Below the pieces are notes generated by a model, which made no database searches, was not told the DNA's origin, and saw nothing but the letters and a program-made list of their open reading frames with translations. Below, piece by piece: positions 20,476-46,633 of a DNA stretch of 64,000 nt. Source of the stretch: Snodgrassella communis (GTDB lineage: Bacteria; Pseudomonadota; Gammaproteobacteria; Burkholderiales; Neisseriaceae); NCBI RefSeq assembly GCF_914768045.1, contig NZ_CAJZCD010000002.1:372001-436000 (forward strand). The letters run 5' to 3'. Within the stretch, counting starts at the first letter, position 1. Every line of letters starts with the position of its first letter. The position numbers were made by a program, and so were the translations under genes.

Positions 20476-20919
20476 CTAATATTCCCGCGCTTCTTCCCAC
20501 ATGCGGAACAATTTGTCATGCTCAATTTTTAAGATAGTAGTTAAAAGCAGCCATAACTCTTCAAAATCTAAACTGAATGATGGGCTTTCGAGTATGTAAT
20601 TGCGTAGCTTGACTAATGATTTACCTTTAAAATTTACTGTAACAGCTTCGATCAATGCATCTTTATTTTTTTCCAGTGAAAGCTCTGTCATTGTTAAAAA
20701 TTGATGGCGCTCTAGGTAAGCAGCATCTTTACGCCTCAATGCTAGCTTTTCTGTATCCGTCATATAATTTTCAGGATGAAGATGCCGGTCTATTTCATCA
20801 TCTGTCATTACCCTGAATGCTTCTTGCCCACCTGATGATTGCTTAATCCATTCATTGGCCAGCTCAACCGTATCAAATGCATATACTCGACCATCTTTGT
20901 TATTAAAATAATATTTCAT
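20476..20919 (-). CDS. Tail fibre assembly chaperone, cluster A, 147 aa
   Basis: The C-terminal 75 residues (KKDALIEAV-like KNKDALIEAV, LRNYILESPSFSL, MWEEAREY) are homologous to the last part of the cluster B chaperone (33284–33925), with ALIEAV, RNYILE and WEEAR shared. The N-terminus differs (YYFNNKDGRVYAFDTVELANEW). It lies 1 base after the fibre gene, the standard place for a Tfa-type protein that helps fibre trimers fold. Last gene of the operon. Confidence 0.7.
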   Translation of the reverse strand: MKYYFNNKDGRVYAFDTVELANEWIKQSSGGQEAFRVMTDDEIDRHLHPENYMTDTEKLALRRKDAAYLERHQFLTMTELSLEKNKDALIEAVTVNFKGKSLVKLRNYILESPSFSLDFEELWLLLTTILKIEHDKLFRMWEEAREY

Positions 20920-20920
20920 C

Positions 20921-21787
20921 TTAACCTCTTCTTAGTTCTGACCACGCTCTAATATCCATATTGCCATTTAGATAATACCCATGACCGGGCGGTATGATGC
21001 CATATAAAGCTTTACGCTGTGAGTCTTGATTACTTGTATTGACTTCACCCAACAGTACACCATTAACAGCAAGCTCAGCTCTTCTTTCGTTTGTTTGATA
21101 AAAACTAATGGCCACTGCAATAGGTGAAGCTGTCTGATTGGTGTAGACAGTGCCATATGCCCGCCATGGTGTTACATTCACCCAATCCTGATTGAAGCCT
21201 AATGAATGAACTTGACGTACATGAATAACTGCATTCCCATCTCCGTTAAACCAGCAATTACCTGTTACATCGCCGTTTAAAACAAATTGACGAGAATGTC
21301 TTAATACGTTTGCATAATTTGCAGAATTCGCATTGCCTGTTGTATTCTGATTCCCAGGTCTGTTCACCCCTGGTAAATCGATATCGCTAGTCCCATCAAA
21401 ACTCATCCCACCAATTTTGCATGGCTTGTATAATTTAGATGCAGTAACCGCATTACCACCCTTATCCAACTTGCTGTCATTCAGTGCTTTACCCTGTCGT
21501 GCAGATAATGCTGAAAGTTTGTCATTAGAATTCAGCGTATCAATTATCTTGGTTACGCCGGCAACATCGGCAGTTGCGGCTGCTGGCGTACTTGATGCTA
21601 TTAACATTTTGATTGCTGTTATTACCTGATTCTGTGTGGCCTTTTCCGGCTTGATGCCAGCTGCGGCCAGAATGGCAATTAATTCAGCCTGTACCTGATT
21701 CAGCCAGCTGGCTGGCAATACAGTGCCCAGTTCATTTATACCGTTACCATCATGGAACAGTCCATCTTGCGTATCAATTGGATACAT
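20921..21787 (-). CDS. Tail fibre protein, cluster A, 288 aa
   Basis: Receptor-binding fibre. The N-terminal region (residues 1–60, LPASWLNQVQAELIAILAAAG) is of the baseplate-attaching type found in short phage fibres. Middle repeats include FDGTSDIDLPGVNRPGNQNTTGNA, a motif also present in the cluster B fibre. The C-terminal third (FNQDWVNVTPWRAYG … GHGYYLNGN) should be the tip and is unlike that of cluster B, so the two particles probably recognise different receptors. Good ribosome binding site AAGGA before the ATG. Confidence 0.8.
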   Translation of the reverse strand: MYPIDTQDGLFHDGNGINELGTVLPASWLNQVQAELIAILAAAGIKPEKATQNQVITAIKMLIASSTPAAATADVAGVTKIIDTLNSNDKLSALSARQGKALNDSKLDKGGNAVTASKLYKPCKIGGMSFDGTSDIDLPGVNRPGNQNTTGNANSANYANVLRHSRQFVLNGDVTGNCWFNGDGNAVIHVRQVHSLGFNQDWVNVTPWRAYGTVYTNQTASPIAVAISFYQTNERRAELAVNGVLLGEVNTSNQDSQRKALYGIIPPGHGYYLNGNMDIRAWSELRRG

Positions 21788-21789
21788 TT

Positions 21790-22356
21790 TTATTTGTCCT
21801 TATAAGTAAATCGTATATCAGTAAATGCTGGTTTCAGCTCTTTTAATACACTTTCAATAATTACATCACCATATGCTGTCAATCTGTCGCCGGCTGTTGA
21901 CATTCCGGAACGAAAGCGGGTTGCGCGACTATCAGCATTCCTGATGTTTACCCACCACACCCACATAATATCTTCACGCGCTAACCTATCACCTGCGCGG
22001 TTAACACCAGCGCGGAATGGCTGTGGTTCTGTTATGGTGATGTCGTAGCCAATTGAGGCAGCCATCTGCATAAAATAAGGAATACTCAAGCCACCGGTTT
22101 CATTAATTTTAGTGATCACTGCCAGTATTCTTTGCTGGCCATTTTTACCGGAGCTATCCAGATTGAGTAGCTCCTCCCAGCGGGCGATATAATTTCCCGA
22201 AGCGCGTGGGTCAATAACGCCCAGTTTACGACGGGCTGCATTCTGTATTTCATCCAGACAGTTGCCATCAATTATGGCGGCATTTCTTACTGCCGGTGCC
22301 GTGCGGTTGTATGCAACGGCTGGTAATAATCCCAATAAGGTATTAACATAACTCAT
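21790..22356 (-). CDS. Baseplate protein, Mu gp48/YmfQ (DUF2313) family, 188 aa
   Basis: Length, position after gp47 and the sequence SYVNTLLGLLPAVAYNRTAP fit Mu gp48, the protein linking wedge and fibre. The ORF track starts at 22392, but ATG 22356 overlaps the gp47 stop as ATGA, indicating coupled translation, and gives the family-like N-terminus MSYVNTLLGLLP. Confidence 0.85.
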   Translation of the reverse strand: MSYVNTLLGLLPAVAYNRTAPAVRNAAIIDGNCLDEIQNAARRKLGVIDPRASGNYIARWEELLNLDSSGKNGQQRILAVITKINETGGLSIPYFMQMAASIGYDITITEPQPFRAGVNRAGDRLAREDIMWVWWVNIRNADSRATRFRSGMSTAGDRLTAYGDVIIESVLKELKPAFTDIRFTYKDK

Positions 22357-23411
22357 AGCATACTCACATCCACCGTACCCAGCATAAACCATTCAATTTT
22401 CTCTTTTATCTCAGCCGTCAGATTAGCTGCCGGCTGAATCATTTTGCGGTCAATAACGCCAGATACGTCACTGATTACGGCTTCCAATTGAGATGCAATC
22501 ACGCTATCACCAGGCTTTAAGGCACTGAAATGCTCCTGCAAGGCCTGTCTGATGTCCGCTGTCGCCCTTTCAAGGTTCCCATCGGACAAACGCACCTTTA
22601 CTTTAATATCAACTCTGGTGACATCTGGTTTAATAACAAAGCTGTTTTTAGCAGTTACCGGACGCACTGAATCAATGTAAGCCTGTACTTTGCTGACTAT
22701 CTCATCACTGGGTAAATTATTATTGCTGGTAATAACAATATCTACCGTTCCAAGCCCACGGCGTAATGGGTATACATATGCGCTGGTAACACCGTCCACA
22801 CTCAATGCCCAAGCCCGATAATCATATTTATTGCCTCCGGCAGGTGGGCGACGCAATAAATCCAGCAAACGGTTCAATAACGAAGTATCGCTTTCAACAT
22901 CAGTGCCACCGGTTGTATGTACGATTTCGACATCACTGGATACGCCTATCGGTGCAGCCATAAATTGTGCTGCTTTATTATGCTGATTTGATGCAGAACC
23001 AGCTTCATCCGCCTGTATGGATAAAACAGCAGTACCCTCCTTACCGATTACAGCCTCTTGCTGAACCGCATATAAATACTCACCACATTTAATTTGTAGT
23101 TTTGCTTTTATTAATGATCCTTCAATACCATGCGCAATGGCTGTTCCATTGGCTGAAGTAGCATTCTTGCGGCGTATGCCACGCAGATTACAATGCCTTT
23201 CTAAAAATTCTGTATCTGCAGTATCTGGAAAAAATTGTCTTAATATCCATGCCTGATGGGCATATTGTCCTGTGGCACAACTGGCCAGACTGCTCGCCCG
23301 GATAAAATTATCACTATCTGAAGAAATATCAGCTTCGGGATTTAATGAAACCATATCACGCAAAATAGCCTGACGTATTTCCTCAAATGTTGGAATATTA
23401 TGCATTTTCAA
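22353..23411 (-). CDS. Baseplate wedge protein, Mu gp47 / baseplate J family, 352 aa
   Basis: Baseplate_J family: IPTFEEIRQAILRDM at the start, TEFLERHCNLRGIRRKNATSANG in the first third, GTDVESDTSLLNRLLDLLRRPPAGGNKYDYRAWAL in the middle. Forms the wedge of the contractile baseplate. A homologue (gpJ) occurs in cluster B at 36491–37636, with EWD/VESD-type motif shared. Coupled to gp48 by an ATGA overlap. Confidence 0.9.
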   Translation of the reverse strand: MKMHNIPTFEEIRQAILRDMVSLNPEADISSDSDNFIRASSLASCATGQYAHQAWILRQFFPDTADTEFLERHCNLRGIRRKNATSANGTAIAHGIEGSLIKAKLQIKCGEYLYAVQQEAVIGKEGTAVLSIQADEAGSASNQHNKAAQFMAAPIGVSSDVEIVHTTGGTDVESDTSLLNRLLDLLRRPPAGGNKYDYRAWALSVDGVTSAYVYPLRRGLGTVDIVITSNNNLPSDEIVSKVQAYIDSVRPVTAKNSFVIKPDVTRVDIKVKVRLSDGNLERATADIRQALQEHFSALKPGDSVIASQLEAVISDVSGVIDRKMIQPAANLTAEIKEKIEWFMLGTVDVSML

Positions 23412-23429
23412 AATCCATTTAATTATTTT

Positions 23430-23780
23430 TTAAATTACTTTAACCGGACATTCAAATATAAATTTTTCTCCAGTTAATTGCGTTACCTGTATATTCAGAT
23501 TCAGCATGCCATTATGTGCTTGCATGGTGGCAACAGAAATATCTGCCGCACGCCCATCATCAATAATTGGCTGTAACGCTTGTTGCGCATACTGTTTGGC
23601 TAGCAAACTAACTGATTGCAAATCTTTTTCCCGCTCAAGCGTATACAACAGTGAACCCAGCTTTTTATCCGCCCAATAGCTACCCAGCGGTGTTATCAGA
23701 CGCAAATAAACTGCGTTTTGTAAATGATTTATGATTTGTCCGGTATAATCACCTGTTCTGGTATCAATTTCTCTGTCCAT
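23430..23780 (-). CDS. Baseplate wedge protein, Mu gp46 family, 116 aa
   Basis: GP46 family pattern DREIDTRTGDYTGQI, then RLITPLGSYWADKKLGSLLYTL. It takes the role of gp25/gpW-like wedge proteins that bind sheath to baseplate. Eighteen bases before gp47. Length is slightly shorter than Mu gp46. Confidence 0.85.
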   Translation of the reverse strand: MDREIDTRTGDYTGQIINHLQNAVYLRLITPLGSYWADKKLGSLLYTLEREKDLQSVSLLAKQYAQQALQPIIDDGRAADISVATMQAHNGMLNLNIQVTQLTGEKFIFECPVKVI

Positions 23781-23857
23781 AAACTATCCCGTTGTGTTAT
23801 TTCTGTAGTTTATAAAAATAACAATATTTATCTGAAACTGAAGTACTTCAACAGCTA

Positions 23858-24550
23858 TCAAACAGGCTTGCCTACGCTGACACTGTGATCATGGTCTGCC
23901 AGACTGATGCCTTTGGCTTTAACATCGCCAACAGTGGTATAGCTGCCATTAGTCTGAACAATATTGCCTGAAAATATCGCCCCCTGCCCGCCTTTAATAT
24001 TCATGCCGCCATTACCATTAATTTGGCCTGCAGCTGTGATTTCCTGTGAACAATTAACATTTTGAGCACTGATATTTACGCCAGACTGAGCATCGATATT
24101 AATACCAGCTGCAGCCTCGATTTTTACTCCTGACGGTGCTTTTATATTTAAAGTTTCACAATCAATTTCAATCAGTTTGCCATTTTTTAAGGTAATCGAA
24201 GCACCAGATTGGTTATAAACAGCTACTTCACCGGCTGCCAGTGCTTTAATACGATATTCACCGTGTTCAGTGGCAATAATAATTCCATGACTAGTCTGAC
24301 CACTTAATGGCAAAACAATAGCTTCCGAACCTACGGGCGGATTGCTGGTGAAACCAAATTGCTGTATCTGCTCAACATCCTGTAGAAATTCATCGGCCAG
24401 AGCGGCTATCTGAGCAGATTGAATCGGCTGAGAGGCGTTTACCCGTGTCAACCTGCCACGGAAAGCCTGCCGGACTGAGCTGGTAGTATTATTAATTGTC
24501 GTTCTGGTTTTATTTACCAACTTCGCAACATAACTCATCTGACTCTCCAA
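23858..24550 (-). CDS. Central spike / baseplate protein V, Mu gp45 family, 230 aa
   Basis: Phage_Mu_Gp45 domain at about 25–150 (FGFTSNPPVGSEAIVLPLSGQ) followed by beta-helix repeats of the spike (IEAAAGINIDAQSGVNISAQNV). The C-terminus ADHDHSVSVGKPV holds the HxH motif that binds iron at the tip of P2 and Mu-type spikes. This is the membrane-piercing tip of the particle. The alternative Met at residue 5 (MSYVAKL) could be the real start. Confidence 0.9.
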   Translation of the reverse strand: MESQMSYVAKLVNKTRTTINNTTSSVRQAFRGRLTRVNASQPIQSAQIAALADEFLQDVEQIQQFGFTSNPPVGSEAIVLPLSGQTSHGIIIATEHGEYRIKALAAGEVAVYNQSGASITLKNGKLIEIDCETLNIKAPSGVKIEAAAGINIDAQSGVNISAQNVNCSQEITAAGQINGNGGMNIKGGQGAIFSGNIVQTNGSYTTVGDVKAKGISLADHDHSVSVGKPV

Positions 24551-24586
24551 TTAATTAAAATATATTGTAATTAAATATATACCTTG

Positions 24587-25744
24587 TTAAATTTTTGCCT
24601 GTTTATTCTGCCGGTTAGTCACACCTTTCCGTTTACCTTTGCGGGATCGTGCTGCTGCCGATTTTTTAACATAAGCATCCGGCGTCCATATTCCATCCTC
24701 CTTCAAGCGCAGTTCAGTCAGCGTGCCACCACTTCGACTCAGTAAGAACCGGCGTCCCATCAGAAAAAAAATGGCATCAATTTGCTGATCTTCATCAATG
24801 ACATGCACTCGTTGACCAGGTTGCCATAAGACACCATCCTGAGTTTTATGATCTGCAACCGTAATGGTTAAAGTGAAACCTTCCAGACGCCAGTCCGAAA
24901 GCATTTTTTTTGCCTGCACCTTCAATTGTTCCAGATTTTCTGCATCACCGATTACGACTGTTTTCGGTTTGTACAAAAGCATTGTTTCGTCTTTATATAC
25001 CCATTTCAAATCATGCTTTGATGAATTGGCATAACGGGTGTGGCTCTGGCCAAGAAAGGTAACTTCCGAGTAACGATTCTCAGTACTATATTCGATATGA
25101 ATACTTTGAATATTACGTCTGCGATCATACTTACTATGACAAAGAGTTGCCACAGGCGGGCTGGCATAATCAGCACCGCCAATTACCAACGTACCATCTG
25201 GCTCCAGCCACACATGCAGGCCTGCCTTATAGGCAACTTTGCTCAATGCCTGCCATGCAGTTTCCCCAGGTTCAATGTCTACTTTGTCCAGAACTGGATT
25301 TTTTTCCGCCTTTAATATCACCTTTTTAATTTGTGGCCATGGTTCAACTATCTTCTGAGCCGCGGCTAAAACATTCATTCCTTTAACATTAATTTGCTTC
25401 ACACTGCAATCTACCAGCAAACCGGCAAGGTCACGACCATTAAAACTGATACTATGGTTATTTTTATCAACCATTTCATTCTGGTGCCCAACAATCCCCG
25501 TCATAACCAACTGATTATTAATTAAAACCTCACATTGTAAAGAGCTATAATCAGCCAAAACACCCTGATTTCGGGAAACATTAGTTTCAAAACTGAAAGC
25601 ATCAGCAGGAATCAAAAAATCACTGTCAATATCATAGCTAAGCCAGTCTTTATGCTCTTTTCCGCCTATACGTACCACCACTTCATTAGCATAAGGATAC
25701 GGTAATACTTCAGTCTCATTTAACATAATAATTAATCCACTCAT
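24587..25744 (-). CDS. Baseplate hub protein, Mu gp44 (P) family, 385 aa
   Basis: Similar in length to Mu P (379 aa) and in the expected place between gp43 and gp45. SISFNGRDLAGLLVDCSV and GETAWQALSKVAYKAGLHVWLEPDGTLVIGG match the hub fold shared with P2 D and T4 gp27. The C-terminus is basic (RSRKGKRKGVTNRQNKQAK), unusual but perhaps flexible. It overlaps gp43 by 29 bases. Confidence 0.88.
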   Translation of the reverse strand: MSGLIIMLNETEVLPYPYANEVVVRIGGKEHKDWLSYDIDSDFLIPADAFSFETNVSRNQGVLADYSSLQCEVLINNQLVMTGIVGHQNEMVDKNNHSISFNGRDLAGLLVDCSVKQINVKGMNVLAAAQKIVEPWPQIKKVILKAEKNPVLDKVDIEPGETAWQALSKVAYKAGLHVWLEPDGTLVIGGADYASPPVATLCHSKYDRRRNIQSIHIEYSTENRYSEVTFLGQSHTRYANSSKHDLKWVYKDETMLLYKPKTVVIGDAENLEQLKVQAKKMLSDWRLEGFTLTITVADHKTQDGVLWQPGQRVHVIDEDQQIDAIFFLMGRRFLLSRSGGTLTELRLKEDGIWTPDAYVKKSAAARSRKGKRKGVTNRQNKQAKI

Positions 25745-27041
25745 TACGCTGAATAAATGATGGATGGCATAAATGAGGATTCAGACGCATTAATTCATTC
25801 GCCCGTTTAATATCCTGATAAAGCAAATATGCCAGTTGGTGAATAGTGCCGCTAATATCTGCTTTTCTGGTTCGTATTGGCGGTTTCTGATTAATGACAG
25901 CCAGAATATAATTATTAAATTGTGCAGCGATATTAGCCAGCAACTGAACCATTATCGTCGTTTGCGTATATATATTGGCAGCATTTATGCTTTTAACATT
26001 ATCAGCATAATCATAAGTTTCACGTAAAATATCTATTAATTTCTGAATACGCAGACGCAGATTATTATTGATATACAACAATTCATTTGCCGTAACTATG
26101 TCACTATTCACCTCAATTATAGTCACTGTATTCTGAATCAAAGCACCAATACTTATAATTTGCAGAATCTGGGCAATGGGTTGCATCTGAATACCCGCAA
26201 TCTTTTGCACATGATTAATGGCTTCTTCAGATTCCTGAATATCCTGACTATGCAAAACATAATCAGGCAAATTATTCAAACTATCTACACGGTTACTGAT
26301 AGAATCAAAAGTCTGTCTGCTACTTAAACTACCAGTAGCAAACTGTGCATCATTCGTCAGGCCTGTTGTCACCATTGTGGCCACAGAATGAATCAGCTTA
26401 CTGACGTCCTGATTGTAAGATGCAGAAGAAAAAGCTTTACTGGTCAAATATTTTATGGGATCAAGATCGAAAAAGCGGCGAACACTGCCAGCTACACCAC
26501 ATAATGCAGCAAATACACCATTTGTACTGCCCCATAAAGATGAAATACCCTCCCGAACACTTAACAGCGTTTCAGAATAACCCAGTAATTGCTGTGTATA
26601 CTTTTCAAGAGTATTGTGTATCTGCTCTAATTTAGCTAACCATTGATTTTCAAATAAAAATATCGGGGCAGACTCTTTCGCCTCAAAAAAGGTTATATCC
26701 AGTGCAACATAATTAACTGAATCAGCTTCAGTACGAAACGACCAGCTTGCAGCAATCATATTTTGTAATAGACCTAAAACCGGATGAACTAATGTGCCAG
26801 CACCTGGTTCCTCCAGCACCGCCAATAACTGTGATAACTTTGTATCAAATCCAGCACCAAAATAGACAGCAGCAATCTGACATTGCCGTCCCTGCGTACC
26901 CAAATCCTCAATATCAGTTCCATTTGCAAACGGACGACCATGCCTAACTAGCGCTTTCTCATTTTTATCACTAATAGAAATGACATCAAAGGCAACATTT
27001 TTATAACTGGCCTTTTGCAGATTATTCTTCCACATAGTCAT
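25716..27041 (-). CDS. Tail/DNA circularisation protein N, Mu gp43 family, 441 aa
   Basis: The N-terminal 95 residues (MWKNNLQKASYKNVAFDVISISDKNEKALVRHG and GTLVHPVLGLLQ) are the DNA_circ_N domain of Mu N-like proteins. The remainder is helical and unassigned. In Mu the protein is part of the tail end; despite the domain name a DNA role is not required. The gene begins at the tape-measure stop. Confidence 0.85.
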   Translation of the reverse strand: MTMWKNNLQKASYKNVAFDVISISDKNEKALVRHGRPFANGTDIEDLGTQGRQCQIAAVYFGAGFDTKLSQLLAVLEEPGAGTLVHPVLGLLQNMIAASWSFRTEADSVNYVALDITFFEAKESAPIFLFENQWLAKLEQIHNTLEKYTQQLLGYSETLLSVREGISSLWGSTNGVFAALCGVAGSVRRFFDLDPIKYLTSKAFSSASYNQDVSKLIHSVATMVTTGLTNDAQFATGSLSSRQTFDSISNRVDSLNNLPDYVLHSQDIQESEEAINHVQKIAGIQMQPIAQILQIISIGALIQNTVTIIEVNSDIVTANELLYINNNLRLRIQKLIDILRETYDYADNVKSINAANIYTQTTIMVQLLANIAAQFNNYILAVINQKPPIRTRKADISGTIHQLAYLLYQDIKRANELMRLNPHLCHPSFIQRNEWINYYVK

Positions 27042-29563
27042 TATTGTGCACCTCCACGGTTATACATTTCCATTTGATTGCGTGAAACCAGATTACTAAT
27101 CACTCTGCCATCAAGCGTTACCGTAAGATTATTCTGAATAACCTGCTGCTGGTTCGACAGAATAGTAGCTATTTTGTCTAAACGTATACCCAACTCCTGT
27201 ACAATAGACTGAAAAGCATTTTGAAATTCAGCACTTTGCTGCACAAGCATAGACTGCCCAGCACCAGACTGGCTTTCTATAGCAGGTAAATCAGCCAGAG
27301 CATTTCTGTATGAAAGCATCATTACAGCAGACGGTGTCATATTCGCACCCGTTATCAGCTCATCCCTTTCACAGGCAAACATTGATTGCCCATATAATGC
27401 AGGATTGAGTCCGTAGGCATTGCGAAAATCTGATGTGATTGGCTGGTTCCCCTCTACATCAGTTGTAGCTGTTATTTCCTCAGTATCCTTATTTTGCGTA
27501 ACAGCATCGCCTACCTTATCGCCCATAAAGCTGCCGCCGATTCCGCCAAGTAAACCGCCAACCAGCCCGCCCAGCGCAGTACCTATACCAGGTAATATTA
27601 ATGTTCCGATTGCAGCGCCAACCTGACCTCCTGCCCAGGCACCTGCCAGACCACCAGCGGTACTGGTTGCATTTTTTATCTGAGCCGTCTTCTTTTCTTC
27701 ATAGGTTAAACTGTCATCATTCTGAATTGCATATACATTATAGGCACCACCAAGGACAGCCAATGCCGAATTACCCCGTCCTAACATTTTACCAGACACT
27801 CTAGCTGGAATTTTTCTACTTTTTATGCCAGTTTTACCACCGACTGACGTTTTTTTACCGTTGCTTCTGCGTGATTTTCTTCTTTCTCTATCAAAATCAC
27901 CTGCTGAATCAATATCACCTCCTTGACCAGACAAAGCCCCCAATACCTTCAGTGCAGTTGCAGCACTGCCAGCAGCTGCGGCCAAAGCGGTTACAGCAAG
28001 CGTAAGAGCAGGAAATTCCGCTGATAACTCGGTCAACTTCGTTTGAAAATTAACTAATGGTTCTACTACATCACTTCTGCCCAAAGTAGTCAAAGCACGA
28101 TTTTTTTCCTGCTGCCGCTCCGGATCCGAGGATAATACGGCCAACTGTTTGGCAGCCAAACCACCAGCATCTTTCTGCAACGCGTTTATTTGTGGCAGCA
28201 GCAGATTATTATTCAAATTAGCATTAATAGCATCTCTAGCATCTACAGGAATAAAAGATAACAGCTTATCCTGACGAGCCTCCATCTGTTGCTGTGCCTG
28301 TACATCGCCTGCATCAGCTTTTTGCTTTAAGTTCTGGTAACTCTTATCTTTGGCCAGAATATCACTACAAACTTTAATCAGAGATTGAGCATCATTTAAT
28401 CCCTGCTTATTGCCCTGTTCCCTGATTTTATCCCAATCAAGATATTTGCCAGAAGCATTAGGATCTTTAATTTTACGCAGATTACTGCCCAATTCCGGAT
28501 TAGCCAATGTTTCCAGAAAAGCTTTAATGCTTTTACTTGCCTCATCATTGGATTCTGAATTTTTTGATGTGGTCTGTAAGGCTGAAATTAAATAATCGAT
28601 ACCTCCAGTATCCGTTAGCCCCGCCTTTTTGGCAGAAGACAGTAAATCCGGTAATTCACCCTGCAATTGGGCAATAGTAAATTTACCCTGACTGCTTGAT
28701 CCAATAATATGATCAGAAACCGAATTATAATCTTTAGCCTGCAGACCATAGTCTGCCAATGATTTGTACAATCTGGCTGTATTTTCATGGTCATATTCAC
28801 CAGCATTGGCAGAGGATCCGACCATGGTGCGATGAGCATAAGGAATTGTTGCCTTCACCTGATCCAGAGTCATGTTCTGCTGTAACATATCAGTAAACAG
28901 ATTCAGAGCAGCCTGTGATGTACCGCCATTTTTAGCAACTAACCCCTGAACCAAACCCTGAATTTCTTTAACACCCTGAGTTTTAATCCAATCCGCAGAT
29001 TTACTCTTATCTGTACCAAATGCCTTTGCAGCCGCTTGAATCACACCTGAACGTAATTTTTTTTCATCATCTATTGCGGGTTTAACTGCGCCGTAAGCCG
29101 CCTTTCCGCCCCTGATAAGTTCACTGCCAACAGTTTTGGCTACGCCCCATTTAGATGAATTTTTTTGTTGTTCAGCAAAATTTTTTTGTATTTTAGAACT
29201 TTTTTCTAATTCCTTATTTAACTCACGAATACTGTTACGAGAAGCCTTGGTTGCATGCTGAATCTGTTTTTGAGCCGCAGTAGCAGTAGCAGTAAAATTC
29301 TTATATGCATTCTTGCTCTTACCAATTTCCCGTTGTATTTCCCGCTCAGACCGTATTTCCTTCCGTAATCGCATATCCGCGGCACGCTGTTGCTCTCGCT
29401 GAATCTGCTGAATAATTCGGATTTGGGATTTACCGGCTTTCTCACTTTCCCTGACTGCAACGGCAGCTGTACGCTTGATTTGCTGTTCTAATTTTTTTAC
29501 CTCCTCAGTCATTCTGGTAATAGAGGCCTCCTGTTTTGCTAGCGACTCCTGATTTGAAGACAT
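27041..29563 (-). CDS. Tail tape measure protein, cluster A, 840 aa
   Basis: Sets tail length and lies in the tube lumen. Long coiled-coil N-terminus (residues 1–130, Lys/Glu/Gln/Arg-rich), a helical core, then a hydrophobic Gly/Ala-rich segment near residues 625–690 (AGAWAGGQVGAAIGTLILPG, GGLLGGIGGSFMG) that could insert in a target membrane. I prefer ATG 29563, preceded by GACGAGAG, over the track start at 29623. Largest cluster A gene, as expected. A terminator lies just upstream. Confidence 0.9.
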   Translation of the reverse strand: MSSNQESLAKQEASITRMTEEVKKLEQQIKRTAAVAVRESEKAGKSQIRIIQQIQREQQRAADMRLRKEIRSEREIQREIGKSKNAYKNFTATATAAQKQIQHATKASRNSIRELNKELEKSSKIQKNFAEQQKNSSKWGVAKTVGSELIRGGKAAYGAVKPAIDDEKKLRSGVIQAAAKAFGTDKSKSADWIKTQGVKEIQGLVQGLVAKNGGTSQAALNLFTDMLQQNMTLDQVKATIPYAHRTMVGSSANAGEYDHENTARLYKSLADYGLQAKDYNSVSDHIIGSSSQGKFTIAQLQGELPDLLSSAKKAGLTDTGGIDYLISALQTTSKNSESNDEASKSIKAFLETLANPELGSNLRKIKDPNASGKYLDWDKIREQGNKQGLNDAQSLIKVCSDILAKDKSYQNLKQKADAGDVQAQQQMEARQDKLLSFIPVDARDAINANLNNNLLLPQINALQKDAGGLAAKQLAVLSSDPERQQEKNRALTTLGRSDVVEPLVNFQTKLTELSAEFPALTLAVTALAAAAGSAATALKVLGALSGQGGDIDSAGDFDRERRKSRRSNGKKTSVGGKTGIKSRKIPARVSGKMLGRGNSALAVLGGAYNVYAIQNDDSLTYEEKKTAQIKNATSTAGGLAGAWAGGQVGAAIGTLILPGIGTALGGLVGGLLGGIGGSFMGDKVGDAVTQNKDTEEITATTDVEGNQPITSDFRNAYGLNPALYGQSMFACERDELITGANMTPSAVMMLSYRNALADLPAIESQSGAGQSMLVQQSAEFQNAFQSIVQELGIRLDKIATILSNQQQVIQNNLTVTLDGRVISNLVSRNQMEMYNRGGAQ

Positions 29564-29682: not shown

Positions 29683-29683
29683 A

Positions 29684-35345: not shown

Positions 35346-35349
35346 TTTA

Positions 35350-38004: not shown

Positions 38005-38021
38005 AACGCTTTTCCAGTAAT

Positions 38022-38055: not shown

Positions 38056-38083
38056 TAGGTTTGAATAAGCTGTTAGCAGAACA

Positions 38084-38713: not shown

Positions 38714-39797
38714 ATTTTTCCCCCGTATCTGCATCATCAGCAATGTATTCAATCATGTTAATTTCCAGAGACGTGGTATAACCAGAACTACGGCTTAAGT
38801 TGTGGCCTGCCTGCTTAATCTGATAATTTCCCGACATTTTGCCATAACCGCTCAAGCGGATAATCTGGCCAGCCACCAGCTTCACATTGCCAAACAACTC
38901 CAGACTACCCGTTACCTGACACTGGCGCGCATCAGTAAGTGCAGCATCTGCACGTGCAGTGAGCTGCTGTTGTGATTCCCCTTTATTGGCCACAATTTTC
39001 AACATATCACCACTTGCGCTCAGCTTACTTTGTGCCCGCAATGGCTGCCCCTTTCGCTTGACCGTACGTACCTGTTTGGCTTTAGTATCATAACCACAAG
39101 CCATTACCTCGTCTGGAACACCTTTAAGCTGATCACGAAAACATGCAGACTCCACATCTTCCGGCAGCAATACCAGTACAGGTTCCTGTGCCGTTAATTC
39201 CGTATTGGCAATAAAGGCTAAAGTCTGGTCAACAATCTTAAAAGTATAGCCAAACTGCTTTGCCAACCGTGCCAGAAATTCCACATCACTTTCCTGATAC
39301 TGAGTAATACGTTCAATCTCCAAATTGGCAATCGAATTTTTCAGCACCAGCTGCAATCTTGCCGCCACCTGCTGCACAACTTTTTCCAGAGTTGTTTTCT
39401 CATATGCTCTTGGCTGTAAAGTGCGGCTGGCACGGGTAATTCCCGTGGAAAGGGCTTTCAAAGTGATCACATTAGGTTTGAACGCATAATCAATATCAGC
39501 AATCTCAAAATTGCCCAGATTTACCATACCGGTAAACTGATCTCCCAGCATAAACGACAGCATATCGCCCTGATCCGGATACCAGCTTCGTAGCCATTTG
39601 CCATCGGTATCCTCAATCGATACCGACAGTTCATCCGACTGCTCGCCCAGATAATCCGTATAATTAATACTGAGCAAATAAGGCTTGATGGCCAGAGTAA
39701 TATCTTTCTTTTCATAACCTATAGTGAAATCCGGCATCGTAACTGGATGAGTTCGCCCCAAACTGGACACCCCTGTCAGTAGGCTCAACGCATCCAT
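38697..39797 (-). CDS. Baseplate hub protein D, P2 gpD family, cluster B, 366 aa
   Basis: Phage_GPD family (late control protein D): TMPDFTIGYEKKDITLAIKPYLLSINYTDYLGEQSDELSVSIEDTDGKWLRSWYPDQG and ITQYQESDVEFLARLAKQFGYTFKI. Despite the old name it is the hub that holds the spike, equal to gp44 of cluster A. Strong AGGAGGAT before the ATG, which lies within the end of gpX. Confidence 0.93.
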   Translation of the reverse strand: MDALSLLTGVSSLGRTHPVTMPDFTIGYEKKDITLAIKPYLLSINYTDYLGEQSDELSVSIEDTDGKWLRSWYPDQGDMLSFMLGDQFTGMVNLGNFEIADIDYAFKPNVITLKALSTGITRASRTLQPRAYEKTTLEKVVQQVAARLQLVLKNSIANLEIERITQYQESDVEFLARLAKQFGYTFKIVDQTLAFIANTELTAQEPVLVLLPEDVESACFRDQLKGVPDEVMACGYDTKAKQVRTVKRKGQPLRAQSKLSASGDMLKIVANKGESQQQLTARADAALTDARQCQVTGSLELFGNVKLVAGQIIRLSGYGKMSGNYQIKQAGHNLSRSSGYTTSLEINMIEYIADDADTGEKYAETV

Positions 39798-40006
39798 GGT
39801 GGCATATCCTCCTGCGCTGTATGAGTATCCGATTGTATGACGGGGATCAGTACCGTCAGATTGGCAGCAAACTGTTCAGCCAGTGGTAAATGCGGATTAG
39901 CAGCAATCAGCCGGTCAAGCATCGTGGCATCACCATAATATTTCTGTGCAATCAAATCCCAGCGATCCCCTTCACAGGTCTGGTATTGCAAAACTGAATC
40001 AACCAT
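39785..40006 (-). CDS. Tail protein X, P2 gpX family, LysM-like, cluster B, 73 aa
   Basis: YQTCEGDRWDLIAQKYYGDATMLDRLIAANP is the LysM-like gpX pattern. A small essential tail protein in P2, at the tube–hub interface. Sits between U and D and overlaps D by 13 bases. Confidence 0.9.
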   Translation of the reverse strand: MVDSVLQYQTCEGDRWDLIAQKYYGDATMLDRLIAANPHLPLAEQFAANLTVLIPVIQSDTHTAQEDMPPWMR

Positions 40007-40008
40007 AA

Positions 40009-40905
40009 TCAGGCCTCATCCTTTCTGGCAGCCAGCCATGCCGTTAACGACTGAGCACCGGTAGTTGCATTGCTAATACTGTCCTCTACCATGGATAACA
40101 GTTTTTCACTATTATCCAGCCAGTCTCCCCACTCACCACTGTCATAGCCACTTTGTATCAAATTCACACATTCTGTCAGCTGATGCGCAGCCTGACCGGT
40201 ATATGACAGAAAATCTGCCGCACCGGACAGATCACCAAACCATGCACCAACCTCGGGCAAAGTATTCAGCTTACTTAGCGTTTGTCCGCCAACAGACAGC
40301 GCATCGGCAATCATACCCAGCCAGCCAGAAGTATCATGTTGCACAGTACGCGCACGCGTGATCAGGTTCTGAATCTCAGTAACATTTTCTTCTACGGCAT
40401 GATAAATACGTACCCCTGTCTGTACCGCCGCCGCAACCTTGTTAACAACCCCTTTAATCGAATCCGGCATAAAAGAAAGCAGCGGATTCTGACCCTTCAT
40501 GATGCCCGGCGTTGGTAACGGATTATTCGGATCACCTACAAACTCAAGCAGCTCAACACTGATTTCACGCGCGGCAGTACGTCCCTGTGCATCCTGAATC
40601 AAAGTAGTACTACTCAACTGCTGAATCACAAACCAGCCAACAAAACGACCCGAGCCAAACACCAGCGCCAGAGCCTGCTGTGCTTCCTTGGCCTGAATCA
40701 ATGCAGTATAGGCACTATCCGGATTACTCAGCTTCCAGTGCAGCAACATACCAAAACGGATGGTAGTCAAATCATTGCCGGTAGCCTGTAGGCGCGGACG
40801 ACCGGCCAATACATCATGTTTAGCAAAAACAGCACCATGCGTTTCTTCATAACTGTTGAAACTATCCAACACTTCAAAGCGAATATCTCCTAGCATTGCA
40901 TACAT
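40009..40905 (-). CDS. Tail protein U, P2 gpU family with a long C-terminal extension, cluster B, 298 aa
   Basis: The first about 130 residues are gpU (MLGDIRFEVLDSFNSYEETHGAVFAKHDVLAGRPRLQATG and LALVFGSGRFVGWFVIQQL). P2 U is about 160 residues; here an extra helical region of about 150 residues follows (QTGVRIYHAVEENVTEIQNLI … SLTAWLAARKDEA), as in some other P2-like tails. Start overlaps the tape-measure stop by one base. Confidence 0.88.
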   Translation of the reverse strand: MYAMLGDIRFEVLDSFNSYEETHGAVFAKHDVLAGRPRLQATGNDLTTIRFGMLLHWKLSNPDSAYTALIQAKEAQQALALVFGSGRFVGWFVIQQLSSTTLIQDAQGRTAAREISVELLEFVGDPNNPLPTPGIMKGQNPLLSFMPDSIKGVVNKVAAAVQTGVRIYHAVEENVTEIQNLITRARTVQHDTSGWLGMIADALSVGGQTLSKLNTLPEVGAWFGDLSGAADFLSYTGQAAHQLTECVNLIQSGYDSGEWGDWLDNSEKLLSMVEDSISNATTGAQSLTAWLAARKDEA

Positions 40906-43484
40906 CAGTAACTCCTTAACTCTTTTGCCTGCATCATGCGCCGGTACATCTGTTCAAATTCGCGCTGACTCAATGCCAAAGCCTGCTGAATCACCGAACG
41001 GTCTGCGTTGCCGTTAACCTGAATAGTCGGATTAAAATTAATGGTTACTGCACTGGAATCATGTCCTGCCGGATAGCGATTCTGGGCAAATTCTGCTGCA
41101 TTTAGCTGCATTTTTTCATTAAGCTGAGCAGTCAACGTACCAGAACGACTTTTGAATTTCTGCTGTAAGCGCTCAGCAACCAGACCGATTGCTGTAACCG
41201 GTTTATCTGCCCCGAGATCAAGCCCCAGATGCATACCTTCCATCAGCGAACCGCCTATGCTTTTAAATACACGGCTAGGTGAATTAATCCCCAATACAGA
41301 TTTAGCCTTATTAATAATCTTACTGGCGAACTCACCTACTGCATTAACTGCCCTACTGATACCCTCAGTAAAACTTTTAACCAGACTATCAATAATATTG
41401 CGTCCAAACTCACTGAATTTTGCAGGTAAATCCTTAAAAAATTTCATTCCTGCTTCAAATTTAGTTTTAACGGTATCCCATAAACCAATAAAAAAACTTT
41501 TAATTGGTTTCCAGTACTTATAAATCAGAAAAGCAGCTGCACCAATTGCCAGTGCAACCAGCCCTATAGGCGTCATCAGAAAAGCCCGTCCTACAGCTAT
41601 AATTCCCTGACGTAGCAGATTCAACACAATACGGCCTTTACCCAATGCACTGAAACCCCTGCCCAGACTGGAAAAAACCCTAAACAAAGGTTTTACTACC
41701 TTGGTAATCAGGCCAAATGACTGCACAATTTTCTTAATTGGCGCAATGGCAGTACGCCCTATAGTGGAAAATGCCTTTTGCAATAAACCCAGTGCAGAGC
41801 GCCCCTTATTGAACACCTTAAAATTCTTGCCCACACCAGCCAGCCTGCTGCCAAAAGACAACAGCTTCTGGCGCAATGAACCGGCAGATTTTCCCACAGA
41901 GGTAATAGCAGAACGTAAACGCTGAAATACCGAACCACCCTGCTTCAGGTCACGCGCAAGCTGAAAACGGGCAAAAATAGTACGCAATAGCGCCAGCGGA
42001 CCAGTAACCATGGTAATAGCATAACGAACCAACAGCAGCGTCATCCGTAACCCAGTCAAACTTACACCGAAAGCCACCACAGATTTAATCAGCGTGGGAT
42101 GCTTCTGAATAAAAGGCAATACCGTATTGAGCAGCACATCTTTGGCTACCTGAGCAAAAGTATTAATATCAGGTGCCAGCGTGGCACCAAAAGCATTGCC
42201 TACCTCAATCACTGCATCGTGTAAATTATCCATACTGACAGCAAGTGTATTAACCTGAAGCTGAGCTCGCTGATCCAGCGAAGGCTGATTACCCATTCGG
42301 GTTTGCATAGTGACAAAACCGGCACCTCCTCCCTGAGCTGCGGCAGTGGCAATCTGTCCACCTTGCTTACCGAATACCGCATCCATCATATTCAATGCAG
42401 CACGGTCACCATATTTAGCCTTAACTTTATTAAAATTCGCTTCCAGCTCACCTACAACCACATGCATATCTTTAAGTGAGCCGTCTTTATCAAATAAATT
42501 AAACACCACACCAGATTTTTGCATCATCTGGCGCATTTCAATACTCATTGCAGCAGTAGCCTGCTGCATGGCTTTTGGCCCCTGTGCCAGCCTGTCCAGA
42601 AATTCCCCCATACCGTCAGCCGCCGCAGACTTACCGACACCGCCGTGTATTGCCATCCCCTCCAGAGCATATATTTTCTGCTGATTCTGTAAACCGGTCA
42701 GATGCAACCTTTGTAAAGGTGAAGCCATAGCAGCCTGAGATTTTTCAATATCTTCCAGACTCAAACCCACAGAATGCGCAACCTTCTGCACAGCATCCAG
42801 ACCAGCGGACAATTCCGTATCTTTCAGCTTATAAGTCTGCATCAACCCCTTGGCTACCGAAATATCCTCAATTTTCTTGCCAAATAACACATTAAAACTG
42901 GCAATTGTCCTCATCCCCCCCTGCAATACCGCATCATCAGACATATTGGCCAGCTTCATATTAGTAGCAAGGCGAGTATAATCATTTGTATTACCCTGCT
43001 GCTCAAGACCCAGTTGCATAGCGTGGGCATTAATCTGATTAAACCTGCCCATGCTGCCATCTTTCTGCATCATAGCCTGTTTCAGCCCAGTTTCCGCCGT
43101 TTCCCGTTCCATATGAATTTTCACCGATTTCTCAACCGGCTTCATCCAAGTTTTAAGGGTACTTTTGGTTTTCGCTAATTCCTCACCAATTTTCTTGCGC
43201 TGCCCCAGAATTTTGTTATGCCTGTCTACTGCCTCAGATAACCTATTCTGAGCACTAATTGCTTTCGCAGTTGCTGCAGACAAATTATCCAGAGATTGGA
43301 TTTTCACAAGTAAACCCTGTACAGACCGCCCCATCTCCTCTATTTTTCTGGTTGCCACATCAATAGCAGAACCAAAGGCCTTAACAGAACGTTGTACCTC
43401 ACCAAAATCAGAAACAAATCCACTATCCATAACGGCACCAATGTATTTCATCCAATAACTCAAGAGATACTGGAATTCACCCAC
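40905..43484 (-). CDS. Tail tape measure protein T, P2 gpT family, cluster B, up to 859 aa
   Basis: Phage_related/TP901-type tape measure: N-terminal coiled coil (residues 20–130), the conserved core SDDAVLQGGMRTIASFNVLFG … GVGKSAAADGMGEFLDRLAQGPKAMQQA, hydrophobic helix near 665–690 (VALAIGAAAFLIYKYWKP), and NSPSRVFKSIGGSLMEGMHLG. The track start is GTG without a ribosome binding site; ATG 43451 or ATG 43430 (MDSGFVSDFGEVQ) is more likely, the latter giving 841 residues. Confidence 0.9.
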   Translation of the reverse strand: MGEFQYLLSYWMKYIGAVMDSGFVSDFGEVQRSVKAFGSAIDVATRKIEEMGRSVQGLLVKIQSLDNLSAATAKAISAQNRLSEAVDRHNKILGQRKKIGEELAKTKSTLKTWMKPVEKSVKIHMERETAETGLKQAMMQKDGSMGRFNQINAHAMQLGLEQQGNTNDYTRLATNMKLANMSDDAVLQGGMRTIASFNVLFGKKIEDISVAKGLMQTYKLKDTELSAGLDAVQKVAHSVGLSLEDIEKSQAAMASPLQRLHLTGLQNQQKIYALEGMAIHGGVGKSAAADGMGEFLDRLAQGPKAMQQATAAMSIEMRQMMQKSGVVFNLFDKDGSLKDMHVVVGELEANFNKVKAKYGDRAALNMMDAVFGKQGGQIATAAAQGGGAGFVTMQTRMGNQPSLDQRAQLQVNTLAVSMDNLHDAVIEVGNAFGATLAPDINTFAQVAKDVLLNTVLPFIQKHPTLIKSVVAFGVSLTGLRMTLLLVRYAITMVTGPLALLRTIFARFQLARDLKQGGSVFQRLRSAITSVGKSAGSLRQKLLSFGSRLAGVGKNFKVFNKGRSALGLLQKAFSTIGRTAIAPIKKIVQSFGLITKVVKPLFRVFSSLGRGFSALGKGRIVLNLLRQGIIAVGRAFLMTPIGLVALAIGAAAFLIYKYWKPIKSFFIGLWDTVKTKFEAGMKFFKDLPAKFSEFGRNIIDSLVKSFTEGISRAVNAVGEFASKIINKAKSVLGINSPSRVFKSIGGSLMEGMHLGLDLGADKPVTAIGLVAERLQQKFKSRSGTLTAQLNEKMQLNAAEFAQNRYPAGHDSSAVTINFNPTIQVNGNADRSVIQQALALSQREFEQMYRRMMQAKELRSY

Positions 43485-43594
43485 TTATTATTTATTATTC
43501 ATATAAACCATAACCGTTAACCCATCACCAGTTCACAGCGTCTGCTGCAAACCAATACTGAATTAACGGTACTGTCACAACGGGCAGCAACCGC

Positions 43595-43753
43595 TTACAA
43601 CTTACTGTATTTAGCCTTAATCTGTCGGTTAGCCTGTTGCTGCCATTGTAAAATTTCATCCAGAGACATCTCATCAATATCTGCCGGAGAAAAACCAAAC
43701 CACCACGCTAAATCCGCAGCAGCCTGATAAAAACCATCCCAATCAGTGAGCAC
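43595..43753 (-). CDS. Tail chaperone E', P2 GpE family, cluster B
   Basis: The conserved part is DWDGFYQAAADLAWWFGFSPADIDEMSLDEILQWQQQ, a clear GpE family match. It overlaps gpE in another frame. Relative to gpE the shift needed is +1 or –2, not the –1 of P2 itself. A GTG at 43753 could allow separate initiation (52 aa). The upstream part of the track ORF (to 43888) is not GpE-like and is only the open alternative frame. Confidence 0.75.
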   Translation of the reverse strand: MLTDWDGFYQAAADLAWWFGFSPADIDEMSLDEILQWQQQANRQIKAKYSKL

Positions 43754-44027
43754 CCAGACAAAACTGACGCACCAGCGTGTAGTCCTCCCACGACAGCTCA
43801 TCAAAATCTTCACTTTGCAGGCCTGAAGCCATAGCCAAACAATGAGCTTCCTGCAATACCGCATTATCCGGATACTGCTCAGCAGCACGTTTAAAATCCT
43901 TAACCCGTACCCGGCGCAGCGTTAGTTCCGTTACCACACCATTCGGCGTTTGCAGCGGTTCTGCCAGCTTAATAACCTTACCCGTACCTAATTGTTCTTG
44001 CAGCTGTTGCGCTTCAGTTTGTGCCAT
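43743..44027 (-). CDS. Tail assembly chaperone E, P2-like, cluster B, 94 aa
   Basis: LAEPLQTPNGVVTELTLRRVRVKDFKRAAEQ is typical of phage tail assembly chaperone proteins next to FII. ATG 44027 (MAQTEAQQLQ) follows AAGGAATAG and is preferred to the track start at 44048. It lies between tube and tape measure and is preceded by a terminator. Confidence 0.85.
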   Translation of the reverse strand: MAQTEAQQLQEQLGTGKVIKLAEPLQTPNGVVTELTLRRVRVKDFKRAAEQYPDNAVLQEAHCLAMASGLQSEDFDELSWEDYTLVRQFCLGAH

Positions 44028-44091
44028 ATCTATTCCTTGAATCATCAATAAATGCCGAAATCATTCAGCGTAAAAAAAGCATTTCAACCAT

Positions 44092-44122
44092 AAAAAACGC
44101 CCACCCTGATCAACAGAGTGAG
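44092..44122 (-). terminator. Leftward terminator between tube FII and chaperone E
   Basis: – strand stem GCTCACTCTG / CAGGGTGGGC (with G·U pairs), 5-base loop, then GTTTTTTAT. It lies inside the cluster B operon directly after the tube gene, as expected if sheath and tube are made in excess. Confidence 0.8.
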
Positions 44123-44154
44123 CATTTAACAACATCATCACCAATTGCAAATAA

Positions 44155-44670
44155 CTACATACCGATATTTGCGCGCATCTGCGCCAGCATGTCCACACCA
44201 TTTACCCGATACTGATTAGTAAACGCGTTGTAATACAAAACTTCACGGCCGGAAACCGTCTGATGAATTTCCGTAGCCTGAAAAGTACTGGCAAACTCAG
44301 CTTTTTCTTTTGGTTTATAAGTCCCTAAAGGATTCTTGCTGAACGTAGCCATCACCATCACCACCATCGGTACTTCCGCGGCCAGACCTGAGGCATTAAA
44401 TGCCTGTACATTGGCACGTACCATCAACTGGCACGCCTTAAACGGGTTATAAACCTTAGTGAACACATCCGGATAAAAACTGTTCCAAGTAATTTCCCCT
44501 TCCAGCGCCTCAATACCGCTGGGCAGCTTTACCGAACCTACCAGCCCCAAACCCTTAGTTTCTGTCTGTCCAACAGAAATATCCGGTAATTTAAACTGAC
44601 TGGCACGGCCTAACTGACTATTACCATTAACATAAACATTGGCATTATAAATTGCATTAAATTCTGTCAT
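44155..44670 (-). CDS. Tail tube protein FII, P2 family, cluster B, 171 aa
   Basis: Same length as P2 FII (172). FNAIYNANVYVNGNSQLGRASQFKLPDI and TFQATEIHQTVSGREVLYYNAFTNQYRVNGVDMLAQMRANIGM are strong family signatures. Forms the inner tube. Nine bases after the sheath gene. Confidence 0.96.
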   Translation of the reverse strand: MTEFNAIYNANVYVNGNSQLGRASQFKLPDISVGQTETKGLGLVGSVKLPSGIEALEGEITWNSFYPDVFTKVYNPFKACQLMVRANVQAFNASGLAAEVPMVVMVMATFSKNPLGTYKPKEKAEFASTFQATEIHQTVSGREVLYYNAFTNQYRVNGVDMLAQMRANIGM

Positions 44671-44679
44671 AACTGATTC

Positions 44680-46083
44680 CTAAGCGGCAGACTGATTACT
44701 AATCAAATTAGCCAGATAAGTACGGGTCATCACACTAGTATTAGTGATACGTTCTGCTGGCAGTTTAGGTGTATAGTCATACTTGATTGGTACCTGCCCT
44801 TTACTGAAAGCATCAGCCAGATCATAGTCATAATCCAGACTCACACTAAAACCAACAATACTCTTAAGCGTACCCAAATAAGTACGTACCGTACCTAGCA
44901 GACTGTCAATCAACGCATCATCAATAGGCAAATCAATATACTGCAACTGCGCACGTCGAATTGACTCATCAATCAAGTCACCAGTACGCTGAGCGGTTTC
45001 AAAATTCTTAATGTGCGTTACTGTCGGAAAACAGGCCAGACGGTTACCCCATAAGCGAAAGCCCGTACCATAGCTGTTAAATACCGTAGTAATCCCCTTC
45101 TCATTCAAGCGATTGGTTTCCGCCTGCGGGTCATCAATCCGTGCTGTCAGCGACACTTCCATACCGGTTACGCCCAAAAGCTCACGGTTGGAAATACTGA
45201 ACCAGTAGCCCTGATTCACATCAGTTTTCATACGCAAACCGGCAGCATGCGTAGCCAAACTTTCCAGTTCGCCGCTGGAACCAGTAACATATGGATAAAA
45301 TAACTGCGCGCGATCTGAAGAAGTCTGGAAATTAATATTTCCAAGCGAACCGCGTCCCTGAATTGCCTGCGCCAGTGTAGTGCCTTTCGGAGCCGCAATG
45401 TAGGCAATTGCTTCCAGCTTATCAGCCAGCGTTACCATCGCTGCGGCAACAGCCGCATCTGCATCATATTGCGGCACGATCACAATCTTCGCATCCGCAC
45501 CCAGACGGGTAAAACCTTCAGTAAGCAGTTCCATGCCTTTGCGCTTACCGGTTGCCGCTTCATAGCCACCGATAATATCCGCTACCGTTACCTTGCTTGG
45601 ATCAAGATAAGTATAGGAAATCGACACTTCCGCACGCGGCTGCGCAAAAGAAAACTCACCTGTTTCCTGATTCAGCGTGTAATCAGTGCCTTCAGACAAA
45701 GTCTGATTACCTGCCTGTACCGTAAAACCAGCCTGTATCGCCGGATGCGCTGTTTTTGCCATCAACGTATCACTGTCGATAACCAGAGCTTCAGAATCAA
45801 CAACCGTTTTATGTTTGGCCGGATCCAGCACATTGACCACATAGGCCACACCAGACTGATAACGCGTCCAGATATTAGCCGCATCAGGCAAAGTAAAACC
45901 AGCTCCCGTTACCGAACCAAACTGACTAAAATCCTTAACTGTCTGACACACCGTCAATTCATTTACTGCACCAGACATACCCGTACCGACAATCGCCGTA
46001 ATCGCCCCGTCCACGGTATAGACCGGACTACTGCCGCCATCAATACGGATTGTTTCAACACCATGCAAATAAGCTGCTGCCAT
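44680..46083 (-). CDS. Contractile tail sheath FI, P2 family, cluster B, 467 aa
   Basis: N-terminus YLHGVETIRIDGGSSPVYTVDGAITAIVGT and C-terminus FSVSLDYDYDLADAFSKGQVPIKYDYTPKLPAERIT are diagnostic of FI sheaths. It is longer than P2 FI (396), with an inserted surface domain near residues 95–170 (ALVIDSDTLMAKTAHPAIQAG … EVSISYTYLDPSKVT). Confidence 0.96.
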   Translation of the reverse strand: MAAAYLHGVETIRIDGGSSPVYTVDGAITAIVGTGMSGAVNELTVCQTVKDFSQFGSVTGAGFTLPDAANIWTRYQSGVAYVVNVLDPAKHKTVVDSEALVIDSDTLMAKTAHPAIQAGFTVQAGNQTLSEGTDYTLNQETGEFSFAQPRAEVSISYTYLDPSKVTVADIIGGYEAATGKRKGMELLTEGFTRLGADAKIVIVPQYDADAAVAAAMVTLADKLEAIAYIAAPKGTTLAQAIQGRGSLGNINFQTSSDRAQLFYPYVTGSSGELESLATHAAGLRMKTDVNQGYWFSISNRELLGVTGMEVSLTARIDDPQAETNRLNEKGITTVFNSYGTGFRLWGNRLACFPTVTHIKNFETAQRTGDLIDESIRRAQLQYIDLPIDDALIDSLLGTVRTYLGTLKSIVGFSVSLDYDYDLADAFSKGQVPIKYDYTPKLPAERITNTSVMTRTYLANLISNQSAA

Positions 46084-46091
46084 GATGATTT

Positions 46092-46598
46092 TTACTCCTT
46101 CGAAGTTACAGATTGTGAAATAGCTTTGGCCTTAATCTCACCACGAGTTGGTATCGATTTGACCAGATTTTGCTGATTAACCACCGGACGCCGTTCCACC
46201 TGAAGCGTCTCAGTGCGAGCGCATAACCGATAGCGCCAAACTCCATCGGCCTCCCCCAGAAAGCGCTCACTCAACAACCGGATTTGCTGGCAATGGTCAG
46301 GCTGAAAGCCCACCAGAGCCAAGCGTAAAGAATCAAGTAAATCCAGCGCACCCTGTTCGCCACCCAGAGCACGTGTAAAAACAGTAAACCGTAACTGCAA
46401 ACGCCGCTCCTGCGTAATCAGGTCAGTAGTACATGGGTTGCTGAATTTACTGCGCTGATAACCAATCAGCACTGCACCCAACGGATGAACAAACTGATAA
46501 TTCTTAAAATTATTTGGCATCAGCTGCACTGAATAATCCGGCAGAGCCTGCTGAATATGCGCCAGCACATTGTCTAGAACCGAACGGGTTAAACTCAT
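46092..46598 (-). CDS. Gp37-like tail terminator protein, cluster B, 168 aa
   Basis: First gene of cluster B. Belongs to the Gp37 family: VLDNVLAHIQQALPDYSVQLMP, VHPLGAVLIGYQRSKF and RRLQLRFTVFTRALGGEQGALDLLDSLRLALVGFQP. It should cap the tube, as the gp37-like protein does in cluster A. ATG 46598 follows GGAGTGGAGG and is preferred to the track start at 46628. Confidence 0.82.
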   Translation of the reverse strand: MSLTRSVLDNVLAHIQQALPDYSVQLMPNNFKNYQFVHPLGAVLIGYQRSKFSNPCTTDLITQERRLQLRFTVFTRALGGEQGALDLLDSLRLALVGFQPDHCQQIRLLSERFLGEADGVWRYRLCARTETLQVERRPVVNQQNLVKSIPTRGEIKAKAISQSVTSKE

Positions 46599-46633
46599 CC
46601 TCCACTCCTCATACAATACCGCAGGCACAAAAA

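Follow-up and report, generated by a model that had tools for sequence, protein, structure and literature searches.

Two tandem contractile tails of Mu-like ancestry predict a pair of R-type tailocins at a fixed chromosomal site in Snodgrassella

A single Pseudomonas chlororaphis strain is reported to carry two R-tailocins (Dorosky 2017, as cited in PMC7815802). In Pseudomonas protegens CHA0 two distinct R-tailocins occupy one locus (mutS-cinA/recA), an arrangement attributed to two independent prophage infections, and the same locus also holds a holin, endolysins, spanins and a PrtR-like regulator (PMC7815802). For carotovoricin, the tailocin of Pectobacterium, tail-fibre recombination is reported to maintain tailocin diversity (PMC13195805). 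Here we describe a locus of Snodgrassella communis (assembly GCF_914768045.1, contig NZ_CAJZCD010000002.1, positions 372,001 to 436,000 of the forward strand; this whole stretch of 64,000 nucleotides is termed the window, and its positions are used throughout) in which two contractile tails lie in tandem on the minus strand, cluster A at 20476-32955 and cluster B at 33284-46628. The genes predict two separate R-type (contractile) tailocins, and this reading, which jointly takes in a shared lysis cassette, a Mu-like ancestry and a common pool of fibre tips, is very probably correct.

The tail genes were named by PHROGs profile scans of the open reading frames (ORFs) of the window. Cluster A comprises a gp37-type completion protein, sheath, tube, tail chaperone, tape measure, two hub proteins, three baseplate wedges, fibre and fibre chaperone, while cluster B comprises a gp37-type protein, sheath, tube, E/E', tape measure, U, X, D, V, W, J, I, fibre and chaperone. 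In both clusters, all core ORFs are open. The gene order of cluster A, taken as Mu-type in a preliminary description of the stretch, is indeed that of Haemophilus phage SuMu, a Mu-like phage in which head genes lie directly upstream. Judged by homology, each cluster would supply its own sheath, tube, tape measure, baseplate, spike, fibre and fibre chaperone. The released particles would then act by the known tailocin mechanism, in which the fibre tip binds a surface receptor of related bacteria and contraction leads to a lethal puncture of the membrane.

The absence of heads is a consistent property of the locus. A tblastn search with the portal, terminase, capsid, protease and transposase of neighbouring and genus Mu-like prophages found no related gene in the window. 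Similarly, PHROGs scans combined with tblastn revealed no capsid, portal, terminase or transposase/integrase accompanying the tails, either in the window or at this site in any tail-bearing relative, in agreement with the preliminary description, which had found two open, complete and headless tails. Head genes at this site are lacking from 8/8 tail-bearing assemblies and from 13 IMG/VR contigs. The label 'portal' attached to the gp37-type genes (phrog_490 in A, phrog_209 in B) was rejected as evidence of a head because gp37 (DUF1834) precedes the sheath in both SuMu and Mannheimia phage vB_MhM_3927AP2, to whose gp37 the A protein corresponds; the B gene with this label is located inside the tail block, immediately 5' of the sheath.

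The distribution of the tails was followed in 14 genomes of the genus plus IMG/VR contigs. In every tail-bearing genome the tails are placed, in one orientation, between amiB and a block formed by a serine transfer RNA gene (tRNA-Ser), DUF441, DUF1841 and the transfer-messenger RNA (tmRNA) gene. The tandem of A and B occupies this site in 5/14 genomes (G000, G002, G003, G004 and G008), while a single tail is present in G001 (B only) and in G005 and G006 (A only). In G007 and G010 no tail gene separates amiB from tRNA-Ser, and in G009, G011, G012 and G013 contig ends or rearrangement make the site unresolvable. The junction of A with B was found in five species assemblies and in eight IMG/VR contigs and is therefore not the assembly error, joining two prophages, that had been considered a possible source of the tandem. 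IMG/VR contig 2617271188 carries both clusters, with a B sheath 93% identical to that of the window, the level seen in G001. A tree of eight flanking proteins unites the eight tail-bearing genomes with 100/100 support and places the empty-site genomes, along with G012 and G013, in a sister clade that is likewise 100/100. The simplest account, which we infer from this pattern and not from a formal reconstruction, is that the pair was ancestral and that A or B was lost later.

Both tails would derive from Mu-like transposable phages like those that the genus still harbours, with A of Mu/SuMu type and B a P2-type tail. Homologues of cluster A are present in SuMu and 3927AP2, both Mu-like phages, with sheaths 47-49% identical, and contig C3 of the window genome carries a Mu-like prophage with a MuA-type transposase, Mu portal, Mu I protease, gpT capsid and an A-type tail whose sheath is about 70% identical to the A sheath. 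Among the A sheaths, the headless ones from this site group in one 97/100 clade. For cluster B, the nearest named phage is Pasteurella phage AFS-2018a (sheath 61% identical), which is transposable, shares the tail gene order and is complete with head and transposition genes. In addition, B homologues in G012 and G009 adjoin Mu-type portal, terminase, capsid and transposition-like genes. Thus, cluster B is a P2-family tail of a Mu-like phage. In the B sheath tree the headless rows fall into a single 100/100 clade, and the rows closest to it are the head-bearing G012 and IMG/VR 3300000333; the 'headed' label in this tree is confirmed by head matches for G012 and most IMG/VR rows, with the short 4.4-kb loci L074-L085 excepted. 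An origin of B from a P2 phage (Peduovirus) was rejected on the basis of these neighbours and of the AFS-2018a order, and also because the P2-type capsid PF05125 is absent from 14/14 genus genomes. The P2 type assigned to B in the preliminary description thus holds for the protein families but not for the source. Domestication, without head and transposition genes, would have been complete by the split of the tail-bearing Snodgrassella species.

The C3 prophage, with its portal and capsid, lends some weight to an alternative in which the tails complete heads encoded at another genomic location, in a prophage or a satellite. However, this prophage has an A-type tail of its own, and the other seven tail-bearing genomes are without a Mu-type portal; head genes elsewhere in the window genome were checked through two families, the Mu portal and the P2 capsid. 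Such a role as tail donor is very unlikely.

Selection on the predicted tailocin genes was assessed through Nei-Gojobori estimates of synonymous divergence (dS) and of the ratio of nonsynonymous to synonymous divergence (omega). Omega ranges from 0.09 to 0.14 in A and from 0.075 to 0.094 in B, compared with 0.047-0.080 in the flanking genes. The dS of A is near that of the flanks in comparisons with the window (e.g. 0.44 vs 0.50) and lower in some other pairs, while the dS of B is below that of the flanks in several pairs (0.25 vs 0.50), and these lower values suggest some recombination atop vertical descent. Given intact tail genes, an omega of about 0.08-0.14, far from 1, and a dS mostly comparable to that of the flanks, the locus is mainly vertically inherited and under purifying selection. 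The stops flagged in relatives are confined to the initial 3-17 codons of over-extended starts, apart from one in a 60-residue ORF at codon 58. They were rejected as signs of gene decay, over-extended 5' ends accounting for all except the one in the 60-residue ORF. The view that the locus consists of two decaying prophages whose tails were retained by chance, already disfavoured in the preliminary description, can draw on the complete Mu-like relatives in the genus and on the listing of the region as a provirus in IMG/VR. It is nevertheless contradicted by an omega of about 0.1 over a dS of 0.1-1.3, by the intact core ORFs and by the identical headless state of eight species assemblies, and is less likely still than tail donation. 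In contrast, the reading as a dual R-type tailocin is supported by the lack of head genes in tail-bearing relatives, by the omega values and by the recurrence of the tandem in independent assemblies.

The fibres match the tailocin pattern of a conserved base, a diversified receptor-binding tip and a chaperone. Over the first 60 residues, identity is 82-100% within A and 93-100% within B, but 20-27% between A and B. Over the last 100 residues, the A tip of G008 and the B tip of G002 are 89% identical and the A tip of the window is 69% identical to the B tip of G001, whereas many pairs from the same tail are below 45%. A different A tip, of the type shared by G008 A and G002 B, is present in an IMG/VR contig that matches the window at about 98% identity over the locus. 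Thus, tips differ between near-identical strains and are common to both tail chassis. A given tip may consequently be functional on either chassis, and the receptor-binding tips would be drawn from a pool common to both. Whether the two chassis are fed from one exchangeable pool of tips and cognate chaperones, with inter-cluster recombination within and between Snodgrassella strains re-aiming either weapon, is in our judgement evenly balanced; if so, the tandem would be a standing targeting system and not two independent bacteriocins. At G008:C11:55604-58499 two tandem A-type fibre genes carry different tips, one of them followed by a shortened chaperone. The least likely alternative is a contractile injection system directed against the bee (extracellular contractile injection system, eCIS: Afp, PVC, MAC), which would suit contractile tail genes in an animal-associated host but is opposed by PHROGs scans that recognised no AAA+ ATPase or cargo among the cluster genes (two variable accessory ORFs lying outside the assigned genes), by collar fibres of phage type with Tfa-type chaperones and by closest named relatives that are phages.

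Beyond the tmRNA gene lies a lysis and repressor cassette (49377-53982) that is found in 8/8 tail-bearing genomes and only in these. It is composed of an M15 peptidase endolysin (49377-49808, minus strand; phrog_465, 3.4e-49; PF13539), two small membrane proteins with hydrophobic segments that are holin candidates (49861-50202, phrog_17925, and 50206-50694, phrog_16843; both minus), an antirepressor (Ant; 51022-51927, minus; PF10547, phrog_524), a CI-type repressor with a helix-turn-helix domain and an S24 peptidase (52292-52882, plus; PF00717, PF01381) and an ORF assigned to the cassette by its co-distribution with the tails among genomes (53554-53982, minus). At an identity of at least 74%, the antirepressor occurs in exactly the eight genomes with tails here, and the cassette is absent from G007, G010 and G012. 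The CI-S24 repressor, antirepressor, two holin-like proteins and M15 endolysin probably control expression, lyse the producer and free both particle types. The second S24 gene, at 54344, is probably a core gene, one also being carried by tail-less genomes. The interval between the antirepressor and CI genes (51928-52291) contains a long conserved inverted repeat, TAATACCTCAAAGG...CCTTTGAGGTATTA, with no adjacent T-run.

Several points weigh against a paired tailocin with a common lysis system. Some species retain A alone or B alone, and the pair is therefore not essential. Four core genes (tRNA-Ser, DUF441, DUF1841 and tmRNA) separate the cassette from the tails, so that the role given to the cassette rests on co-distribution. 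Particles, induction and killing are predictions from the genes, and purifying selection by itself is insufficient to show a bacteriocin function.

The genes of cluster A, all on the minus strand, begin with a fibre assembly chaperone of 147 residues (20476-20919; phrog_14311), 66% identical to the B-tail chaperone of G001, and a fibre recognised by PHROGs (20921-21787) with an A-typical N-terminus and a swapped tip, the one resembling the G001 B-fibre tip. The baseplate is encoded by the wedge genes gp48 (21790-22392; phrog_203, 1.7e-58; true start probably MSYVN), gp47 (22353-23411; phrog_6, 3.7e-73) and gp46 (23430-23780; phrog_180), a putative gp45 spike (23858-24550), proposed from synteny with SuMu gp45 and an H-x-H motif near the C-terminus, with weak PHROG matches, and the hub genes gp44 (24587-25744; phrog_177, 2.2e-125) and gp43 (25716-27041; phrog_184, 2e-81), the latter DNA-circulation-like. 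The tape measure (27041-29623; phrog_794, 3e-97) has 860 residues as called, with MSSNQ as the probable true start. Between it and the gp41 tail assembly chaperone (29911-30288; phrog_508) lies a 60-residue ORF (29684-29866; phrog_2768), and SuMu has a small ORF there too. These are followed by the tube (M; 30288-30689; phrog_185), the sheath (L; 30733-32166; phrog_165, 1.7e-149), a gp38-like small protein assigned by position (32163-32351; cf. DUF2635 of 3927AP2) and conserved in relatives, and the gp37 tail completion protein (32383-32955).

Cluster B is likewise on the minus strand, with one accessory ORF excepted. Its fibre chaperone (33284-33925; phrog_105) and fibre with a collar-type tip (33935-34792; phrog_523 and others) are followed by two variable accessory ORFs, a small lipoprotein-like one on the plus strand (34955-35305) with one N-terminal hydrophobic segment, duplicated in G008 and missing from G002 and G004, and another at 35350-35724 (phrog_4513). 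The baseplate genes are I (35920-36498; phrog_48), the wedges J (36491-37636; phrog_6, 6e-78) and W (37633-38109; phrog_43), the spike V (38084-38752; phrog_9992) and the hub D (38697-39797; phrog_52, 1.5e-91), next to X (39785-40006; phrog_46) and U (40009-40905; phrog_788, 1.1e-78). The tape measure T (40905-43484; phrog_28, 1.9e-54) has 859 residues as called. E' (43595-43888; phrog_10636, phrog_6416) overlaps the tail chaperone E (43743-44048; phrog_166) in another frame, and the tube FII (44155-44670; phrog_55), placed as the tube gene of AFS-2018a, the sheath FI (44680-46083; phrog_23, 7.8e-103) and the gp37-type completion protein (46092-46628) complete the cluster. The near-equal tape measures were given no weight as a sign of matched tails because B aligns over 847 residues in G001 and G004 and the called starts are uncertain. 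Immediately upstream of B, a terminator-like hairpin with a T-run (46629-46658, minus strand) is present in 13 headless B loci and absent from every head-bearing relative compared, a pattern that could hint at attenuation or antitermination. G002 and the matching contig L091 have a different sequence in place of the DNA upstream of B. Sigma-70-like promoters in 19900-36000 show no excess (47 vs 47.1 in shuffles).

Around the clusters, no attachment-site pair is apparent in 19800-20600 or 46600-47100, each searched separately for repeats and not against the other, and an Rfam scan returned tRNA and tmRNA only. At G010:C75:58733-65590 (L060), DUF441, DUF1841, tmRNA and a gene matching w55246 share 98-100% identity with the window while amiB shares 84%, which suggests that the right flank recently recombined between species. 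The A tail of G006 is separated from amiB by an operon that by inspection is TetR/HlyD/ABC-transporter-like (C1:124310-131369), and four tandem related small secreted-protein-like ORFs lie between tmRNA and DUF1841 in G001 (C1:1044248-1046019). A headless A-type (Mu-type) tail with open ORFs, located between ppk-like and dut/coaBC-like genes at G011:C24:173695-186896 (L034), is possibly an independent tailocin.

Snodgrassella is a core symbiont of the bee gut, where strains compete within one gut, and a conserved pair of predicted strain-specific killing particles, with tips differing between 98% identical loci, would give a testable basis for strain exclusion. One genus thereby displays a clear series of complete Mu-like prophages, headless tails, single and dual, and empty sites. 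The region is likely counted as prophage in surveys, and no report of a tailocin in Snodgrassella was found in the literature searched. The preliminary description knew of no Mu-type plus P2-type contractile pair in this family; since Pseudomonas is already known to have tandem contractile tailocin pairs (PMC7815802), the principle itself has a precedent, and the novelty, as far as the literature searched shows, lies in the host, in the ancestry of the two tails and in the sharing of tips between chassis. In CHA0 and, as read from the genes, in Snodgrassella, a fixed locus holds two contractile tailocins that have separate tape measures and fibres, with a common lysis set and a regulator. CHA0 differs in the site and in the bacterial class, its tape measures differ markedly in length whereas those of Snodgrassella are nearly equal, and only in Snodgrassella does the lysis cassette lie beyond core genes. 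P. chlororaphis is likewise reported to have two R-tailocins in one strain (Dorosky 2017). The work on carotovoricin (PMC13195805) appears to concern one tailocin, whereas in Snodgrassella the tips are common to two different chassis.

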